Positions 7,826 to 60,685 of a DNA stretch of 64,000 bases are shown piece after piece (position 1 is the stretch's first letter; each line of letters begins with the position of its first letter). This DNA is from an uncultured bacterium (lineage in GTDB: Bacteria > Verrucomicrobiota > Kiritimatiellia > PWTM01). The notes under the pieces are model-generated. The model was not told the origin of the DNA. It did not search any database and saw nothing but the letters and a program-made list of their open reading frames with translations. Made by a program: the position numbers and the translations under genes. Where the stretch lies: assembly GCA_938010045.1 (NCBI GenBank), contig CALLFZ010000007.1:1-64000 (forward strand), given 5' to 3'.

Positions 7826-9676
7826 ATGATGATGAGCGGTGCGAAGAGGAGTCGAACGACGGCGGCGGAGCCGGTACCGGCCGCGGTGCGGCCGGCGGGC
7901 TGGCGATGGGTGGGCGACTTTCCGGCGGTGGGCATCCGGCCAACGATTGACGGCCGCCGGCGCGGTGTGCGGGAGTCGCTTGAGGGCCAGGTGATGGCGA
8001 TGGCCCGGCGCGCGGCGGACCTGATTTCAAGCCAGCTGCGGTATCCGGACGGCACGCCTGTGCGCTGCGTGATCGCCGATACGTGCATCGGCGGCGCGGC
8101 CGAAGCCGCGATGTGCGCCGAGAAGTTCCGGCGCGAGAACGTTGGGGTGTCGCTCACCGTCACCCCTTGCTGGTGCTACGGCAGCGAGACGATGGACATG
8201 GATCCGCTCACGCCGAAGGCGATCTGGGGCTTCAACGGCACTGAGCGACCGGGCGCGGTGTACTTGGCGGCGGTGCTCGCGGCCCACAACCAAAAGGGGC
8301 GACCGGCCTTCGGTATCTATGGCCGGGATGTGCAGAACCGCGATGACGAGACCATACCACCCGACGTGCGCGAGAAGATCCTCCGCTTCGTCCGCGCGGG
8401 GTTGGCGGTCGCGATCATGCGGGGCAAATCGTACCTCTCGCTGGGCGGTACCTCGATGGGCATCGCCGGTTCGATCGTGGACCATCCGTTCTTCGAGCGG
8501 TACCTCGGCATGCGGGTCGAAACGGTGGACATGACCGAGCTCGTGCGGCGCATCGAAGAGACGATCTACGACCCGCAGGAGTTCGCGCGCGCGATCCGCT
8601 GGACCCGTGAAAAGTGCCGCGAGGGCGAGGACGTGAATCCGCCCGACCAACGCCGCGACCGGGTCCGCAAGGACTGGGAGTGGGAAACGGTCGTGAAGAT
8701 GACGATGATTGCGCGGGACCTGATGATCGGGAACCCGCGGCTCGCAGAGCTCGGGTTCGGCGAGGAGGCGCTCGGGCACAATGCCATCGCGGGCGGCTTC
8801 CAGGGGCAGCGGCAGTGGACCGACCACTTCCCGAACGGCGACTTCACCGAGGCGATTCTGAACTCGTCGTTCGACTGGAACGGCATCCGCGCGCCCTTTG
8901 TGTTCGCGACGGAGAACGACAGCCTGAACGGCGCCGCGATGCTGTTCGGCTACCTGCTGACCAACACCGCCCAGATCTTCGCGGACGTGCGAACCTACTG
9001 GAGCCCGGACGCGGTGCGCCGTGCGACTGGCCGCAAGCTGACGGGCATGGCGGCGAATGGGATCATCCATCTGATTAATTCCGGCGCCGCGACGCTCGAC
9101 GGTACCGGGCAGCAGTCACGGAACGGTCGCCCCGCGATGAAGCCGTTCTGGGAGATCACCGCAGAGGAGGTCGAACGGTGTCTGAAGGCGACGACGTGGC
9201 CGCCGGCGGTGTACGAGTACTTCCGCGGTGGCGGGTTCTCCTCCTGTTATCTCTCCCAGGGCGGCATGCCGCTGACGATGAGTCGCGTGAGCCTCGTGCA
9301 GGGGCTGGGGCCGGTGCTGCAGATCGCGGAAGGATGGTCGGTCGAGATCCCGGCCGCGGTGCATGACGCGCTGAACCGGCGCACCAACCAGACCTGGCCG
9401 ACGACGTGGTTCGTGCCGCGGCTGACGGGGCGCGGGCCGTTCGCGGACGTGTACAGCGTGATGAACAACTGGAGCGCGAACCACGGCGCCATCAGCTTCG
9501 GGCACATCGGTGCGGACCTCATTGCGCTGGCCTCGGCGCTGCGGATCCCAGTGGCGATGCACAACGTGGAGGAATCGCAGATCGTCCGGCCGTCCGCGTG
9601 GGGTCTGTTCGGCGCAATGGATCCGCAGGGGGCGGACTACCGGGCCTGCGCGAATTTCGGGCCGCTCTACGGCTGA
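7826..9676 (+). CDS. fucI: L-fucose isomerase
   Basis: 616 aa, slightly longer than the 591 aa of E. coli FucI. GGGGAGGAG lies five bases before the first of three ATGs (7826, 7829, 7832). The enzyme converts L-fucose to L-fuculose in the cytosol with a Mn ion. Family segments include [30 protein letters not shown] and [20 protein letters not shown]. Glu363, Asp387 and His553 have nearly the same spacing as the E. coli metal ligands Glu337, Asp361 and His528, so the active site looks intact. No fuculokinase or fuculose-phosphate aldolase lies in the window. The next pathway steps are elsewhere or use another route. Confidence 0.95.
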
Positions 9677-9770: not shown

Positions 9771-9815
9771 TCCCAAGGTTGGACGGCTGCGGCGCCAAGG
9801 CGTCCAACGATTGGA
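9771..9815. promoter_or_regulatory. Palindrome pair, 32-bp spacing (site 1)
   Basis: TCCCAAGGTTGGA at 9771-9783 and TCCAACGATTGGA at 9803-9815 start 32 bases apart, about three helical turns. The second is a perfect TCCAA-N3-TTGGA inverted repeat; the first has a shifted left half. The pair lies just upstream of a plausible promoter (9826-9855) for the ABC importer operon. The extended sequence GTCCAACGATTGGACGGGC (9802-9820) occurs again at 57760-57778, where a second half-pair also lies 32 bases on. A binding site for a dimeric regulator or an interspersed repeat are the two readings. Confidence 0.55.
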
Positions 9816-9825
9816 CGGGCTCCGG

Positions 9826-9863: not shown

Positions 9864-12107
9864 GTGACGGATCCGAATGTCCACCCGCGGGGGCGCGCAT
9901 GGCGGCCTCTGGCGGCGGGCGCCGTGATCGTGGCGGCGACCGGAGCGGTGCTGTCGCGGTGCGACAACTCGCCATATCCGGCGGACGAGGCCGGGTCGGC
10001 GACGCTGTACTTCGCGATTAGTTCGCCGATCAACAAGCTCGATCCGGCGACCTCCTACTATTCCCACGAGGCCGAGGTGGTGGACAACGTGTACGAACCG
10101 CCGTTCGAGTACCACCACTTGCGGCGGCCCTACGAGCTGCAGCCGCTGGCGGCGGAGGCGATGCCGACGCCCGTGTTTCGCGGCCCGGACGGCCACGTGC
10201 TGGAGGGCGATCCGCCGCCGGAGGCCGTGGCGCGGGTCGAGTACACGATCCGAATCCGACCGGGCATGTGGTACGCCGACCACCCTTGTTTCGCGACGAA
10301 CGCGGCGGGTGAGCCGCTGTACCGCGGGGTCTCGCCGCGCGAGGTGCGCCACTGGCCGACGCCGAATGATTTTCCGGTCTTGGCCAGCCGCGAGGTCACG
10401 GCGGCGGACTATGTGCGCGGGTTGCGGCGGCTGGCCGATCCGCGGCTGCCGTGCCCAGTGTATGCGACGCTGAAGCGTGCGATCCTCGGGTTCGGCGAGT
10501 ACAGCGAAGCGCTTGCGCGCGAGCTGGCCGCCGAGCGTGCGCGACGGGCGGCGGCGGGGGACATGGAGGACGAGGACCGCCGGCCCATCGTGCTGGACTA
10601 TCTGGCCGTGCCGTGTCCCGGCATCGAAGTGGTGGATCGATACACGTTTCGGGTCGTGCTCGCGCGCAAGTATCCGCAGATCCTGTACTGGCTTGCGATG
10701 CACTTCGCCGCGCCCGTTCCGGAGGAGGCGCTGAGGTTCTACGCGGAGCCCGCGATTGCGGCGCGGCCGATGGACCTGAACCGATGGCCGGTCGGCAGCG
10801 GGCCGTTTTTTGTGCGGCACTGCGAACCAGACCGCCGGATCGTGCTGGAGCGCAATCCGCGATACCGGGGCGGCACGTATCCCACCGACGGCACGCCGGG
10901 CGACCGCGAGGCCGGTTTGCTCGACGACGCGGGCCGCCCCATCCCGTTTCTCGAGCGCGCGGTGATCACAGTGGAACGAGAGTCCATCCCGGCATGGAAC
11001 AAATTTCTGCAGGGATACTACGACTATACCGTCCTGACGCCGGAGGTGTTCGAGCAAACGATTCAGGTGGTGGGCAGCGGCGAGGCGACGCTCTCCGACC
11101 GGATGAGGGCCCGAGGCATTCGGCTCCAGACCTCGGTGGCGGCGGCGATCTATTGGGTGGGGTTCAACATGGCCGACCCGGTCGTCGGCGGGCTCGATGA
11201 ACGGCGGGCGGCGCTGCGGCGCGCGATCTCCGTGGCGCTCGATTACAACGAATACCTCGACATTTTTCTGAACGGTCAGGGCCGGGCGGCGCAGGGACCA
11301 ATTCCGCCGGGCATCTTCGGTGCGATCGACGGTGAGGCGGGCGTGAATCGCTGGACGGACCGGTGGGATCCGGTGGCCCACCGCGCGGCGCGGCGTTCGT
11401 TGGACGAGGCGCGCGAGTGGCTCGCGCAGGCGGGTTGGCCAGGCGGGCGCGGTCCCGACGGTCGGCCGCTGGTAATTCACCTCGATCACGCGTTCGCGGG
11501 CGATCCGACCTTTGTGGCGGTCTTCGACTGGATGCGGGGCCGGCTGCGGCAGCTCGGGCTCGAACTGCGCGAGCGTGGCACGGACCTTTCGCGCTACCGC
11601 GACAAGCTGGAGCGGGGCCACGTCCAGATGTACCGGCAGGGATGGTTCGCGGACTACCCGGATCCGGAGAACTTCCTCTTCCTGTTCTACGGCCCCAACT
11701 CAAAGTTGCGGTCGGGCGGAGCCAACATTTGCAATTACGAGAACCCCGAGTATGACCGGCTGTTCGAGAGGATGGAAGGCATGCGCGACGGACCGGCTCG
11801 GGCGGAGATTGTGTCGAACATGGTCGAAATCCTGCGCCGAGACGCGCCGCTGTGCTGGGGGTTCCATCCCACGTTGTATGTGCTCAGTCACGCGTGGCAC
11901 CGCAACGGCAAGCCCAGGGACATGACGCACAATACGCTGAAGTATCAGCGCGTGGACGTGGCGCTGCGGGAACAGTGTCGGCGGGAGTGGAACCGGCCGG
12001 TGATCGCGCCAGTGTTGGTGCTGGAGGCGGTCGTGCTGGTGGGCGCGTGGCGGCTCTCGCGTCGGAGGGCGGGCCGCGCCGATGCGAATGGGGCGGCCGG
12101 ATGTTGA
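9864..12107 (+). CDS. ABC importer substrate-binding protein, family 5 (dipeptide/oligosaccharide type), with C-terminal membrane anchor
   Basis: 747 aa, GTG start at 9864; no ATG lies early in the frame. An N-terminal hydrophobic segment (VIVAATGAVLSRC) serves as signal or anchor. The Cys resembles a lipobox but the Arg at -1 is atypical. The body is the periplasmic binding fold of the DppA/OppA family, starting with ISSPINKLDPATSYYS. It is long for the family because of an insertion of about 150 residues around positions 90-250. Unusually it ends in a second hydrophobic helix (APVLVLEAVVLVGAW) and a basic tail, suggesting tethering at both ends. The permease ATG overlaps its stop codon. The ligand is unknown; the fucose locus upstream makes an oligosaccharide plausible, by inference only. 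Confidence 0.85.
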   Translation: MTDPNVHPRGRAWRPLAAGAVIVAATGAVLSRCDNSPYPADEAGSATLYFAISSPINKLDPATSYYSHEAEVVDNVYEPPFEYHHLRRPYELQPLAAEAMPTPVFRGPDGHVLEGDPPPEAVARVEYTIRIRPGMWYADHPCFATNAAGEPLYRGVSPREVRHWPTPNDFPVLASREVTAADYVRGLRRLADPRLPCPVYATLKRAILGFGEYSEALARELAAERARRAAAGDMEDEDRRPIVLDYLAVPCPGIEVVDRYTFRVVLARKYPQILYWLAMHFAAPVPEEALRFYAEPAIAARPMDLNRWPVGSGPFFVRHCEPDRRIVLERNPRYRGGTYPTDGTPGDREAGLLDDAGRPIPFLERAVITVERESIPAWNKFLQGYYDYTVLTPEVFEQTIQVVGSGEATLSDRMRARGIRLQTSVAAAIYWVGFNMADPVVGGLDERRAALRRAISVALDYNEYLDIFLNGQGRAAQGPIPPGIFGAIDGEAGVNRWTDRWDPVAHRAARRSLDEAREWLAQAGWPGGRGPDGRPLVIHLDHAFAGDPTFVAVFDWMRGRLRQLGLELRERGTDLSRYRDKLERGHVQMYRQGWFADYPDPENFLFLFYGPNSKLRSGGANICNYENPEYDRLFERMEGMRDGPARAEIVSNMVEILRRDAPLCWGFHPTLYVLSHAWHRNGKPRDMTHNTLKYQRVDVALREQCRREWNRPVIAPVLVLEAVVLVGAWRLSRRRAGRADANGAAGC

Positions 12108-55654: not shown

Positions 55655-57004
55655 TCAGACCGTGATTCGCCACATGGGGATGCCCAGACGGCGGCGGGCA
55701 TTTTCGCCGGGCAGGCGGAGCGTGCGCCGCCAGGGCTCCTCGTCGCGCTCGGTGCGGGGGTGGGAGGAGAGAAACAGTGCTGTGCCGAGCGCAAGGCAGT
55801 GTTTGCCGTAGAGTTCGCGGACCGCGTCCATCACGCGCGAGGCGGCGGTCATGCGCTCGATGCGCGGCCGGTCTTCGAAAAGGTCGGGCTGCTCAACATG
55901 GTCGGCCTCGATCTCGCCGAGCACGACCATCGTGGCTCGGTACGGCGTGGCCGGCTCGTACAGACGTTCGAACAGCGCCCGCAGCGCGGGCAGGATCTCG
56001 TGGGTAGCGGCGGTGGCGCGGTCGAGCCGCGCGCCGGCGGCGCGACGCCGGAAGTCTTGCTTCACCAGTACGGCCAGCAGCGAGCGGGCACGCAGGCCAT
56101 GGCGCCGCAGTTTCATGAAGGCGGACTCGGCGTTGCGCACGAGTCGCGCATACACAAATTCGCGGTCGGTGGAGGGCGAGGAGAAGGTTTTGCCCTTGCT
56201 GATGGTCGCATACGTGCTCGTTGGGGCGGGCCGGACCGGGTACATCGAATCACCGCGAAGCTCGTTCCAGATCTCAAGCCCCACCTTGCCGAGCCGGCGC
56301 TCCGCCCAAGCGGGGGACTGTCGCACGAAGTCCAGCGCGGTGCGCAGGCCGTATGTTTGCAGCAGGGCGACGGTGTTCGGGCCGAAGCCCCAGATTTCTT
56401 CGAGCGGCCGCTCGGCGAGGAACTGGTGCAGTTCGACGCCGGGCACGGCGGTGAGGCCGGCAGGTTTGCGGATGTCCGAGGCGAGCTTGGCAAGGCTTTT
56501 GGTCAGGCTCAAACCGATCGAGACGGTCAGACCAAGCTCCGCGGCGATGGCGGACTGGATGCGGCGGGCGATGCCGATGTAGTCGTCGCGATGGATCCGG
56601 CGCAGGCCCGTGAGGTCGGCAAATCCTTCGTCAATCGAGTGCTCTTCGACCATCGGCGTGAAGCGGCGCACGATCTCAAACATGCGCAGCGACATCAGGC
56701 TGTAGGTTTCGTAGTCACTCGGCAGCACGACGAGATCGGGGCAGCGGCGACGAGCCTCCCCGAGAGGCACGCCACGGCGGATGCCGAGCGCTTTTGCCTC
56801 GTAGGAGGCGCAGGCGATGATGCCGCGTTCCTTGCCGGTAACGATGGGGCGGCCACGCAGTGATGGATTGAGGGCCTGCTCGACTGACGTGAAAAAGGCG
56901 TCGCCATCGAAATGGATGATCGCACGAGGGTAGTCGTCGAGCCGCCACGGTGAGCCGACGGAGGCCGCAGGCGCGCCGGAGGGAACTGGCGTGGACGGGT
57001 CCAT
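55655..57004 (-). CDS. dinB: DNA polymerase IV (Y-family)
   Basis: 449 aa, ATG at 57004, four bases after the lexA stop. Active-site acids: Asp33 in HFDGDAFFTSVEQ and the Asp-Glu of HSIDEGFADLTG (near residue 120). The finger/thumb region contains SIGLSLTKSLAKLASDIRKP and a helix-hairpin GFGPNTVALLQ. The N-terminal 20 residues before the catalytic core are extra. The C-terminal tail reads basic and lacks a clear QxxLxLF clamp-binding motif. It acts in translesion synthesis. Following lexA directly, it should be induced with it during SOS. Confidence 0.95.
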   Translation of the reverse strand: MDPSTPVPSGAPAASVGSPWRLDDYPRAIIHFDGDAFFTSVEQALNPSLRGRPIVTGKERGIIACASYEAKALGIRRGVPLGEARRRCPDLVVLPSDYETYSLMSLRMFEIVRRFTPMVEEHSIDEGFADLTGLRRIHRDDYIGIARRIQSAIAAELGLTVSIGLSLTKSLAKLASDIRKPAGLTAVPGVELHQFLAERPLEEIWGFGPNTVALLQTYGLRTALDFVRQSPAWAERRLGKVGLEIWNELRGDSMYPVRPAPTSTYATISKGKTFSSPSTDREFVYARLVRNAESAFMKLRRHGLRARSLLAVLVKQDFRRRAAGARLDRATAATHEILPALRALFERLYEPATPYRATMVVLGEIEADHVEQPDLFEDRPRIERMTAASRVMDAVRELYGKHCLALGTALFLSSHPRTERDEEPWRRTLRLPGENARRRLGIPMWRITV

Positions 57005-57008
57005 GCGT

Positions 57009-57620
57009 TCAGCCGTACTTGCGGATCACGGCGCGGACGACGCCGCCGATGACGAGCGATCGGCGCGGCCGGATGGGGGAGTACTTGCGATTGGCCGGAT
57101 CAAGCCGGACGCCTTCCTCGTCGCGGATGAAGTACTTGAGCGTCCATTCGTCATCCACCTGCGCGACGACGATGTCGTTGTTTTTGGGCTGCACGCCCCG
57201 TTCGACGAGCACGAGGTCGCCGGGGTGGATGCCGGCTTCGATCATGGAGTCACCGGTGACGGTGAGCAGAAACGTCGCTTCGGGGCGGCGGATCAGGAAC
57301 TCGTCGAGGCTGAGGATGTCGGCGAGCTCCTCCTCGGCGGGCGAGGGAAAGCCGGCGGCGACGGTGCCGAGCATGCGGAGCGTGCCGCGCAGTCGCGGGG
57401 TGGGGGCCAACTTGCCGGCGGCATCCTTGCGGACGTAGCCGAGGCGGGTCAACCGCGTCCAGAGGCGGAACGCGGAATGGCTGGAGCGGAACCCCATCAG
57501 GGCCATCAGTTCCTGATAGCCGGGGAGGCGGTCGTGAGCGCGCACGAACTCGCGCAGCCGCCGCAGTTTGTCGTTCCATGTCAATCTTCGTCGGGGCATG
57601 GTGGCGATCTCCGTGCTCAT
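57009..57620 (-). CDS. lexA: LexA repressor (autocleaving SOS regulator)
   Basis: 203 aa from ATG 57620. An alternative ATG at 57599 has GGAG eleven bases upstream. The first start would be almost leaderless, given a -10 box at 57633-57638, so the shorter start may be used. N-terminal winged helix (LREFVRAHDRLPGYQELMAL); cleavage site AAG with Ala89-Gly90; peptidase S24 domain with Ser125 (GDSMIEAG) and Lys162 (DEWTLKYF). Spacing fits LexA. A perfect box lies in its promoter, and dinB follows, so this is an SOS operon. Confidence 0.94.
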   Translation of the reverse strand: MSTEIATMPRRRLTWNDKLRRLREFVRAHDRLPGYQELMALMGFRSSHSAFRLWTRLTRLGYVRKDAAGKLAPTPRLRGTLRMLGTVAAGFPSPAEEELADILSLDEFLIRRPEATFLLTVTGDSMIEAGIHPGDLVLVERGVQPKNNDIVVAQVDDEWTLKYFIRDEEGVRLDPANRKYSPIRPRRSLVIGGVVRAVIRKYG

Positions 57621-57632
57621 GCTGACAGGGAT

Positions 57633-57661
57633 ACAATAGTGAACGATCGTTCACTTTTCAA
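57633..57661 (-). promoter_or_regulatory. lexA promoter
   Basis: On the minus strand the -35 box TTGAAA (57661-57656) and the -10 box TATTGT (57638-57633) are separated by exactly 17 bases, and the LexA box fills this spacer. The start codon at 57620 lies 12 bases after the -10, so the transcript is nearly leaderless at the first ATG. Confidence 0.7.
57639..57654. promoter_or_regulatory. LexA box (SOS operator)
   Basis: GTGAACGATCGTTCAC is a perfect 16-bp palindrome with GAAC-N4-GTTC, the same core as Gram-positive LexA boxes. It sits between -35 and -10 of the lexA promoter, the classic position for autorepression, and so governs both lexA and dinB. Confidence 0.8.
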
Positions 57662-57760
57662 GTGGTGCCATCTCCGCCGTGGTCCCCGTCGTGATCCCGC
57701 GGGATGGGGGGCGACGGCCTTGGTGCCCGCGCGAGTGGATGGTGCACGAGGCCGGGGCTG

Positions 57761-57805
57761 TCCAACGATTGGACGGGCGTCGAGGTGGAACGTCCAAGCA
57801 TTGGA
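57761..57805. promoter_or_regulatory. Palindrome pair, 32-bp spacing (site 2)
   Basis: TCCAACGATTGGA (57761-57773) and TCCAAGCATTGGA (57793-57805) start 32 bases apart; both are perfect TCCAA-N3-TTGGA dyads. The first extends to the 19-mer also found at 9802-9820. It lies about 100 bases upstream of the lexA promoter, and about 394 bases upstream of the CoADR gene. Regulator or repeat identity unknown. Confidence 0.6.
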
Positions 57806-57858: not shown

Positions 57859-58198
57859 GACGGCTGCGGTGAAGTTCGGACCTTGGGGGCCGCAGCGTTG
57901 CGAGTGTCTGCCGCCGCTCGGTGGCGAGCCAACGCGGTGCCGCGCGCGCGGTCGCTGGTGGGGGACCGCGCTTCCCAGGCCGCGCACGTCGCGCACCGCT
58001 GGAACGGCCGCCCTCAATGCGCGCGGCGATCGCGCGCGGAGAGGCCTTGGAACGGGCGGGGTCTCTCGGGGGGCGTGTTCGCTCGGCCGTGGAGAATTTC
58101 GAACTGTGCAATCCGCTCGCGCCGGGGTTGCCGCGGAGGGTGGGAGGCGTTAGGTTGCAAATCTCAGCCCCGTCGGGGCGGGGCGAATGGAGCGAGAC

Positions 58199-60685
58199 AT
58201 GAAAAAGGTGGTGATCATCGGCGGTGTGGCGGGCGGGGCGTCGGTGGCGGCGAGGTTGCGGCGGCTGGACGAGTCGGCGCAGATCGTGGTGATCGAGCGC
58301 ACGCGCTACGTGTCCTACGCGAACTGCGGGCTGCCGTACCACATCGGGGATCTCATCAAGGATCGCAACCTGCTGCTGATCCAGTCGCCGGAGAGCCTGC
58401 GCGCGTCGCTCAACATTGACGTGCGGACGGGCGAGGAGGCGATCGCGATTGACCGCGGGGCGCGGCGGGTGCGTGTGCGGCGGCTCGCGGACGGTAGCGA
58501 GTACGACGAGGCCTACGGCGTGCTGGTGCTCGCGCCGGGTGCGCGGCCGGTGCGGCCCGCGTTGCCGGGCATGGACGACTCGCGCGTGTACGTGTTGCGC
58601 AATGTCGAAGACATGGACGCGATCCGGCAGCGCGTGGACGCGGGCGCGCGCGCGGCGATCGTGATCGGCGGAGGTTACGTTGGCGTGGAGATGGCCGAAA
58701 ACCTGCGGCACCGCGGGCTCGAGGTGGATCTGGTGGAGATGGTGGACCAGATCCTGCCGCCGCTGGACCGCGAGATGGTGGCGCCGCTCGAGGAGCACAT
58801 GGCGGCGCGCGGCGTGCGGCTGCACCTCGGGACGGCGGCGGCGGCGATTCGAGAGTCGCCGGGCGGGCGCATCTGTGCGGAGCTGAAGAACGGTACGGTG
58901 CTGACGGCCGATTTCATCGTTCTGGCGGCGGGTGTGAAACCGGAGAGCGAGCTGGCGGCGGCGGCCGGGCTCACGATCGGACCGCGCGGCGGGATTGTGG
59001 TGGACGAGCACATGCGCACCTCCGATCCGAACATCTACGCGGTGGGCGATGCGGTGGAGGTGCGGCACGCGGTGCTGCCGGGGAGCTGGACGGTGCCGCT
59101 GGCGGGTCCGGCGAACCGCCAGGGACGAATTGCGGCCGATTCGATCGCGGGTCGTGACAGTGCTTACCGGTCCACGCAGGGTACCGCGATCGTGAAGGTG
59201 TTCAACATGACCGCTGGCGGCACGGGCGCAACGGAAAAGAACCTGCGCGCGGCGGGGATCGAGCACCGCAAGGTGTATCTCCATCCGTCGGGACACGCGG
59301 GCTACTACCCGGGCAGCGCGCCGATGCACATCAAACTGTTGTTCACGCCGAAAGAGGGCCGCATCCTCGGCGCGCAGGTGGTCGGGTACGACGGCGTGGA
59401 TAAGCGGCTGGACATTTTTGCGACGGCGCTGCGCGCGGGACTGACGGTGTACGATCTGGAGCATCTCGAACTGGCGTACGCGCCGCCGTACGGTTCGGCG
59501 AAGGATCCGGTGAACATGGCCGGATTCGTCGCCTCGAACGTGCTGCGGGGCGACGTTCGGTTCTGGTACGCGGAGGAGTTTCCGGAGCAGACGGAGGGCG
59601 CGTTGATTCTGGATGTGCGGGGGCCGGCGGAGTTCGAAAGCTGGCACATTCCGGGCGCGCGCAACCTGCCGCTGGGAGAATTGCGGCGGAGGCTCGGCGA
59701 GCTGAACCGCGAACAGCCGATCCGGCTCTACTGCAAGGTGGGGTTCCGGAGCTACTTGGCCTACCGGGTTCTGGTGCAGTCGGGTTTCCGCGACGTCGCG
59801 ACGCTGGCCGGAGGGGTGACGACGTTCCGGTGTGTACATCGCGCGCTGGTGGCGAAGCCGGAGCGGGAGCCAATCGCGACGTTGCCATATGCGGAGGAAG
59901 AAATGGAGGCACCCGCGGCGCCTCCGACGGCCGCGCCTGTCGCGGCGCGGGAGCTCGATTGCGCCGGCTTGCAGTGTCCCGGGCCGATCCTCCGGGTGCG
60001 CGAGGCGATCGAGCAGATGAAACCGGCGGAGGAGCTCGTCGTACGGGCGTCGGATCCGGGGTTTCGCTCGGACATTCGTGCCTGGTGTGAGCGCAGCGGA
60101 CACGTGCTCCTGGACCTGGTGGAGGAGGACCAGGGAAGAATCCGCGCGCGCATTCGGAAGGGCGGCGCAGCGGCCGTGGCGGTGGCTCCGGCCGCCGCGA
60201 GCGGCGCGGCCTCCCGTGACCAGACGATCATCGTGTTTTCGGGCGATCTGGACCGAGTTCTGGCGGCATTCGTGATTGCGAACGGCGCACTGGCGATGGG
60301 CGGCCGCGTGACGATGTTTTTCACCTTCTGGGGGCTCAACGCCTTGCGGCGTCGTCCCACCGCGCCGGTGGAGGGAAAACCGCTGCTCGACCGCCTGTTC
60401 GGGATGATGATGCCGTGCGGGGCGGGAGCGTTGAAACTCTCGAGGCTGAACATGGGCGGACTCGGAACCGCACTGATGAACTATGTAATGCGGCAGCGGC
60501 AGGTGGCGAGCCTGCCGGAGATGATCGAGTCGGCGCGGCGCGGGGGGGCGCGGCTGATTGCGTGCACGATGTCCATGGAGGTGATGGGCTTGAAACCGCA
60601 AGAGTTGATGGAGGGTATAGAGTTCGGTGGCGTCGCGACGTTTCTGGCCGAGGCAGAGCGGTCGGGCGGTGCCTTGTTCATCTGA
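58199..60685 (+). CDS. CoA-disulfide reductase / rhodanese / TusA / DsrE2 four-domain fusion
   Basis: 828 aa, ATG at 58199 with GGAG six bases upstream. Domain order: FAD/NAD(P)H oxidoreductase of the CoADR group (1-440; Cys43 in NCGLPYH, FAD site VIIGGVAGGASVAA, second site VIGGGYVGVEMAEN); rhodanese (about 455-550; Cys512 in LYCKVGFRS); TusA/SirA (about 585-655; Cys588 and Cys593 of CAGLQCPGPILR); DsrE2-like (about 680-828; Cys740 in MMMPCGAGALK and Cys789 in CTMSME). Together these handle persulfide sulfur, from disulfide or polysulfide reduction through transfer to a carrier. All listed Cys are present. Similar fusions are known, the cellular acceptor is not. Confidence 0.9.
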   Translation: MKKVVIIGGVAGGASVAARLRRLDESAQIVVIERTRYVSYANCGLPYHIGDLIKDRNLLLIQSPESLRASLNIDVRTGEEAIAIDRGARRVRVRRLADGSEYDEAYGVLVLAPGARPVRPALPGMDDSRVYVLRNVEDMDAIRQRVDAGARAAIVIGGGYVGVEMAENLRHRGLEVDLVEMVDQILPPLDREMVAPLEEHMAARGVRLHLGTAAAAIRESPGGRICAELKNGTVLTADFIVLAAGVKPESELAAAAGLTIGPRGGIVVDEHMRTSDPNIYAVGDAVEVRHAVLPGSWTVPLAGPANRQGRIAADSIAGRDSAYRSTQGTAIVKVFNMTAGGTGATEKNLRAAGIEHRKVYLHPSGHAGYYPGSAPMHIKLLFTPKEGRILGAQVVGYDGVDKRLDIFATALRAGLTVYDLEHLELAYAPPYGSAKDPVNMAGFVASNVLRGDVRFWYAEEFPEQTEGALILDVRGPAEFESWHIPGARNLPLGELRRRLGELNREQPIRLYCKVGFRSYLAYRVLVQSGFRDVATLAGGVTTFRCVHRALVAKPEREPIATLPYAEEEMEAPAAPPTAAPVAARELDCAGLQCPGPILRVREAIEQMKPAEELVVRASDPGFRSDIRAWCERSGHVLLDLVEEDQGRIRARIRKGGAAAVAVAPAAASGAASRDQTIIVFSGDLDRVLAAFVIANGALAMGGRVTMFFTFWGLNALRRRPTAPVEGKPLLDRLFGMMMPCGAGALKLSRLNMGGLGTALMNYVMRQRQVASLPEMIESARRGGARLIACTMSMEVMGLKPQELMEGIEFGGVATFLAEAERSGGALFI

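Follow-up and report, generated by a model that had tools for sequence, protein, structure and literature searches.

We identified a 13-bp palindrome, TCCAA-NSN-TTGGA, that constitutes a real, strongly constrained, class-specific and genome-wide family of sites in the Kiritimatiellia, and whose function is probably a chromosome-wide protein assembly. Two pairs of these sites fall within the 64,000-nucleotide stretch analysed here (the window), which comes from a draft genome of 3.2 Mb and ~69% G+C (G000). In that genome the sites are abundant, exactly phased and free of promoter bias, and their conservation in a congener leaves a footprint resembling that of a protein site. The explanation that we favour, and to which we would give about an even chance, is that the roughly 107 site clusters of G000 are binding sites of a putative Kiritimatiellia-restricted DNA-binding protein, which would assemble cooperatively in pairs and arrays on one face of the helix and have an architectural role. 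If the sites amount to a genome-wide code, it is located in a poorly studied and almost uncultured class.

Sites and spacing in the window and its genome

The window contains the four palindromes and both 32-bp start-to-start spacings described in a sequence-only reading (Table 1), as well as the 19-mer GTCCAACGATTGGACGGGC, which is indeed common to positions 9802-9820 and 57760-57778. Allowing up to one mismatch, the window holds six matches against 0.60 expected, a number attained by none of 100 shuffles. Other TCCAACGATTGGA sites carry different flanks, so the shared 19-mer is no copied segment; its identity reflects a common site together with a few chance flanking matches.

Table 1 Paired palindromes and adjoining genes in the window
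Feature	Position	Strand	Sequence or Pfam match	Remark
Left site, pair 1	9771..9783	.	TCCCAAGGTTGGA	1 mismatch to TCCAANNNTTGGA
Right site, pair 1	9803..9815	.	TCCAACGATTGGA	32 bp from left site
Left site, pair 2	57761..57773	.	TCCAACGATTGGA	
Right site, pair 2	57793..57805	.	TCCAAGCATTGGA	32 bp from left site
L-fucose isomerase	7826..9676	+	PF07881/PF07882/PF02952	5′ neighbour of pair 1
Family-5 solute-binding protein	9864..12107	+	PF00496	3′ neighbour of pair 1
LexA-like S24 repressor	57009..57620	-	PF00717	Adjoins pair 2
DinB-type polymerase	55655-57004		PF00817	Next after the LexA-like gene

Pair 1 is located in a 187-bp gap between the fucose isomerase and solute-binding protein genes, ~50-90 bp upstream of the GTG start of the latter, which is the first gene in a peptide-type ABC importer. 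A promoter had been predicted directly 3′ of this pair, but the sequence immediately beyond 9815 does not score as a sigma-70-type promoter. Pair 2 is flanked by lexA and a CoA-disulfide-reductase-like gene, in the gap from which the two are divergently transcribed. We rejected a LexA box as the identity of pair 2, since lexA has its own palindrome, GTGAACGATCGTTCAC, and the congener G001 retains this palindrome but not the TCCAA pair. This separate LexA-type palindrome lies at 57639-57654, just upstream of lexA-dinB, within a gap that is otherwise not conserved in G001. On the other side of pair 2, a single ORF (58187-60685) combines CoA-disulfide-reductase-like, rhodanese, TusA and DsrE domains. 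An RNA element at the pair was also rejected, the one sub-threshold Rfam match not covering it.

Across the 3.2 Mb of G000 we found 152 perfect matches to TCCAANNNTTGGA and none to the reversed control pattern. When spacers of 17-21 bp were allowed, 45 perfect pairs were recovered, all with a spacer of exactly 19 bp. Within 519 kb around the sites, perfect sites less than 150 bp apart lay exactly at 32 bp in 45 of 45 cases, and for 98 of the 106 perfect sites a partner with no more than two mismatches lay at exactly 32 bp, with essentially none at other distances. The earlier view that chance repetition of both a 19-mer and its spacing is unlikely is upheld by these counts, and the genome scan for TCCAA-N3-TTGGA pairs that it proposed places the motif far above background, with the 32-bp spacing enriched. 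The site is defined by its ten outer letters. Its central position is C or G without exception (A or T in 0 of 90 sites in G000), G being slightly favoured before it and C after it, while the spacer and flanks of G000 sites carry little information content. When all 5-3-5 dyads were scanned, TCCAA ranked first in five of the five genomes examined; the arms are longer in G013 and G103 (TTTTCCAANSNTTGGAAAA).

Class restriction, helical phasing and candidate binding proteins

Among 289 genomes sampled from the phylum (97 Kiritimatiellia and 192 from outside the class), perfect pairs occurred in 26, all of them Kiritimatiellia. At least 20 single sites were present in 30 of the 97 Kiritimatiellia, with a maximum of 1,477, compared to one of the 192 others, which had 29. 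When named bacterial genomes were scanned for the pair, the named matches listed were Kiritimatiellae, Lentisphaerae or Verrucomicrobia. Site counts are patchy inside genera (117 vs 2, 181 vs 2 and 1,473 vs 5), and such sharp contrasts provide a clean comparative route to the putative reader protein. A phage-borne element was rejected, as pairs were nearly absent from virus contigs in a scan of the whole of IMG/VR (2 stretches). We found no description of the motif among the open-access papers that the search covered.

In most of the lineages examined, adjacent sites are separated by whole numbers of helical turns. G000 uses the 32-bp step only, G013 has runs of sites with steps of 31 and 32 bp, and G022 has up to 11 sites with steps of 31, 32, 31, 31 and 32 bp, the mean of ~31.4 bp corresponding to three turns of B-DNA; steps of 22, 30 and 31 bp occur in G111 and G125. 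The arrays of G022 and G024 are amplified by copying, and their regular step therefore partly reflects unit length. In the complete genome G103 most sites are single, and with up to one mismatch allowed 38 neighbour gaps of 22-190 bp cluster at multiples of 10.5 bp (R=0.87, equalled by none of 20,000 random draws). This phasing is the most telling because it is independent of duplicated array units, and the gaps would serve as a natural data set for the study of assembly on one DNA face. Gaps pooled from G001, G103, G013 and G087 are likewise clustered when the 28-35 bp class is excluded (R=0.77, p=0.00005). The exception is G175, with 1,473 sites, where among the matches listed the gaps are 17, 22-23, 28, 31-32 and 38 bp and the short gaps are fitted better by half-turn steps of ~5.25 bp than by whole turns.

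Dyad symmetry, the fixed 32-bp phase and the conservation of site letters over drifting spacers make putative protein binding on one face of the DNA a well supported reading of these sequences. In the explanation that we favour, a dimer would read the 13-bp dyad, and two dimers three helical turns apart would lie in contact on the same helix face. The pair, or the array in relatives, would be bound cooperatively, with the bound DNA bent, wrapped or bridged, and the role may be an architectural one in chromosome organisation or very broad modulation. The best reading of the putative binder is a nucleoid-associated or Lrp-type oligomer more than a local repressor. SlmA, Noc, MatP and SeqA belong to nucleoid or chromosome-maintenance site systems, and SeqA also prefers same-face pairs of sites. 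Their sites resemble those described here in being short dyads distributed genome-wide and unlinked to promoters; they differ in sequence and taxon and, unlike those of MatP and SlmA, the G103 sites lie around the whole chromosome with no confinement to ori or ter. Against the favoured explanation stand the change in copy number from 1,473 to 5 inside one genus, which is fast for an architectural system, the many off-phase gaps of G175 (17, 28 and 38 bp among the matches listed), and the core-gene bias of G103 with perfect dyads inside coding sequence, features that also resemble uptake sequences. We put forward more tentatively, at clearly less than an even chance, a class-specific chromosome mark in which one palindrome, present in hundreds to more than 1,000 copies in core DNA and keeping phase over up to ~18 turns, would be served by a putative self-assembling reader and be rapidly gained and lost between congeners.

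No binding protein was found among the candidates tested. Lrp sites are usually A/T-rich at their centre, whereas in the present motif G or C invariably occupies the dyad position, and a further difference is that promoters are ignored. The likeness to Lrp/AsnC sites lies in 13-bp palindromes, helically phased groups, a spacing of two or three turns and global reach; FL11, an Lrp-family protein of Pyrococcus, binds as a dimer on a 13-bp palindrome with neighbouring dimers two or three turns apart (PMC2995911). By this analogy the site groups would work like an Lrp array, and their membership of the Lrp/AsnC sites is putative. All site-rich genomes searched carry a gene for an Lrp/AsnC protein (PF01037), and genomes without PF01037, where counted, have at most four sites. 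The YugG-type Lrp, the one conserved Lrp with an HTH in these genomes, is also encoded by the site-poor congeners G030, G275 and G108, and its recognition helix differs among site-rich genomes with the same site; it is therefore an unlikely reader, and was rejected since neither its presence nor its recognition helix tracks the site. A ParB-family paralogue was rejected too, there being typically one chromosomal copy, with extra copies that do not track sites. Genes for an HU-family protein, an Lrp/AsnC protein and an aminotransferase stand in a row in L106 (5943-7960), and the HU neighbour of the Lrp gene is found in only some members of the window's family (G000, G001, G003 and G004).

Core genes, promoters and gene gaps

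DNA uptake sequences are the main rival reading, because the G103 sites occupy core genes and avoid accessory islands. The motif would then mark self DNA for natural transformation and accumulate via transformation-driven allele replacement, which we regard as unlikely. Up to 1,477 copies over a background near zero recall the uptake sequences of Neisseria and the Pasteurellaceae, which likewise have hundreds to more than 1,000 copies, sharp lineage restriction and the core bias seen in G103. In that genome 64% of the sites lie within genes, with all three frames represented; they are found in the core genes uvrB, uvrC, priA, clpX and murC (named by recognisable sequence), and the 20-kb site-free regions are sulfatase, transporter and exopolysaccharide islands. 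Of the proteins next to sites, 30% have close homologues in other sampled families, compared to 3% of those in the islands (p=8e-6), a core-gene bias measured in G103 only. The same core bias is known for neisserial DUS (PMC2397512). ComEC, rejected as a discriminator, was uninformative since all 44 of the 44 genomes tested for it have it, the site-poor ones equally. Uptake sequences need no helical phasing and, to our knowledge, are not palindromic, whereas the Kiritimatiellia motif is a palindrome, paired or arrayed in a phase that is exact in G000 and strong in G103, and the G000 sites are paired and mostly intergenic; an uptake role for it is putative. The two readings may also combine, with a chromosomal mark that binds protein building up in the part of the genome that is inherited vertically.

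A large regulon of classical operators, with the two dimer sites together making up an operator for a tetramer in the manner of LysR or Lrp regulators, we hold to be decidedly improbable. The dyad and its 32-bp pairing would suit such a regulon, as would the sites located 40-130 bp upstream of start codons and a weak divergent-gap bias in G103 (p=0.012), but there is no promoter bias in G000 or in 12 other MAGs. With genes called by an in-house program, 72 of 106 G000 sites fall outside genes, though non-coding DNA makes up only 11.5% of the sequence, and about one third fall inside genes. Tandem, divergent and convergent gaps number 26/8/6 with sites and 138/34/28 without in G000 (chi-square p=0.87), and 43/15/15 with and 175/45/48 without in the 12 named MAGs (p=0.59), the pairs being located mid-gap. 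Promoter operators are not distributed like this, across convergent gaps and the interiors of genes. The genes next to the sites have mixed functions, with few orthologues having common sites across families, and a conserved regulon was rejected: the ~18 clusters of neighbours shared across MAGs, several of them from close relatives, are near chance by estimate. In G022 a pseudopilin operon carries a phased array of seven sites (L258 2272-2474), which separates its gspJ- and gspK-like genes.

That the sites ignore promoters suggests a role in chromosome organisation or in very broad modulation, and not a local switch. About 100 pairs at an exact 32-bp spacing in G000, with up to 1,477 copies of the motif in relatives, point to a putative protein coating or organising the chromosome in place of an ordinary gene switch. 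The sequence-only reading had weighed an operator, a nucleoid-protein site and an interspersed repeat for pair 1, and had proposed looking for enrichment upstream of genes, where G000 gave no promoter preference. A putative protein site is the part that stands, with a putative nucleoid type fitting best. The reading of pair 1 as the importer's own operator is unsupported, there being ~107 clusters, with equal use of gap classes and a third of sites inside genes, and a copied repeat in G000 also fell away.

Conserved letters and copied arrays

Comparison with the congener G001 (~75% DNA identity) allowed about ten orthologous places to be judged. The pair is kept at four of these (L050, L078, L079 and L106) and not at the others, among them the one beside lexA at 57761. 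Where it is kept, 78 of 80 site letters are identical between G000 and G001, compared to 50 of 100 central and spacer bases (p=6e-14), although the sample is small and the site-letter value is inflated by the restriction to pairs that are kept. Conservation of letters over drifting spacers is the footprint of a protein-like site.

These comparisons bear on a dispersed or tandem repeat family of REP or minisatellite type spread by copying, a very unlikely source for the sites at large. Arrays in G022 and G024 are clearly amplified by copying: those of G022 have common spacers in the same order, and those of G024 are tandem 31-bp units. Spacers of CAIVKH also resemble one another, and copy number varies fast within genera. 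In G000 the spacers, central bases and flanks are unrelated among 45 pairs, so the pairs were not copied from one another; homology of copies beyond the palindromes is absent there, being present only in G022 and partly in CAIVKH, and between congeners conservation is limited to site letters. A RAYT/REP element was rejected on 0 matches to the RAYT-type transposase PF01797 in G000, G001, G005 and G022. REP/REPIN elements with RAYT share paired palindromes in mostly intergenic positions, but the G000 sites have no shared flanks, a free spacer, exact spacing and no RAYT in the genus. Copying is thus refuted as the source of the G000 pairs. Chance palindromes, for which the short length of a single site speaks and nothing more, have practically no probability given 152 matches against none in the control and an exact 32-bp spacing in 45 of 45 cases.

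The tandem units of G024 contigs (e.g. C38:6424-6592) have near-identical spacers and form a minisatellite built on the palindrome. An intragenic pair with both sites perfect is kept between congeners at 75% identity (L079 4000-4044 and L245 9908-9952).
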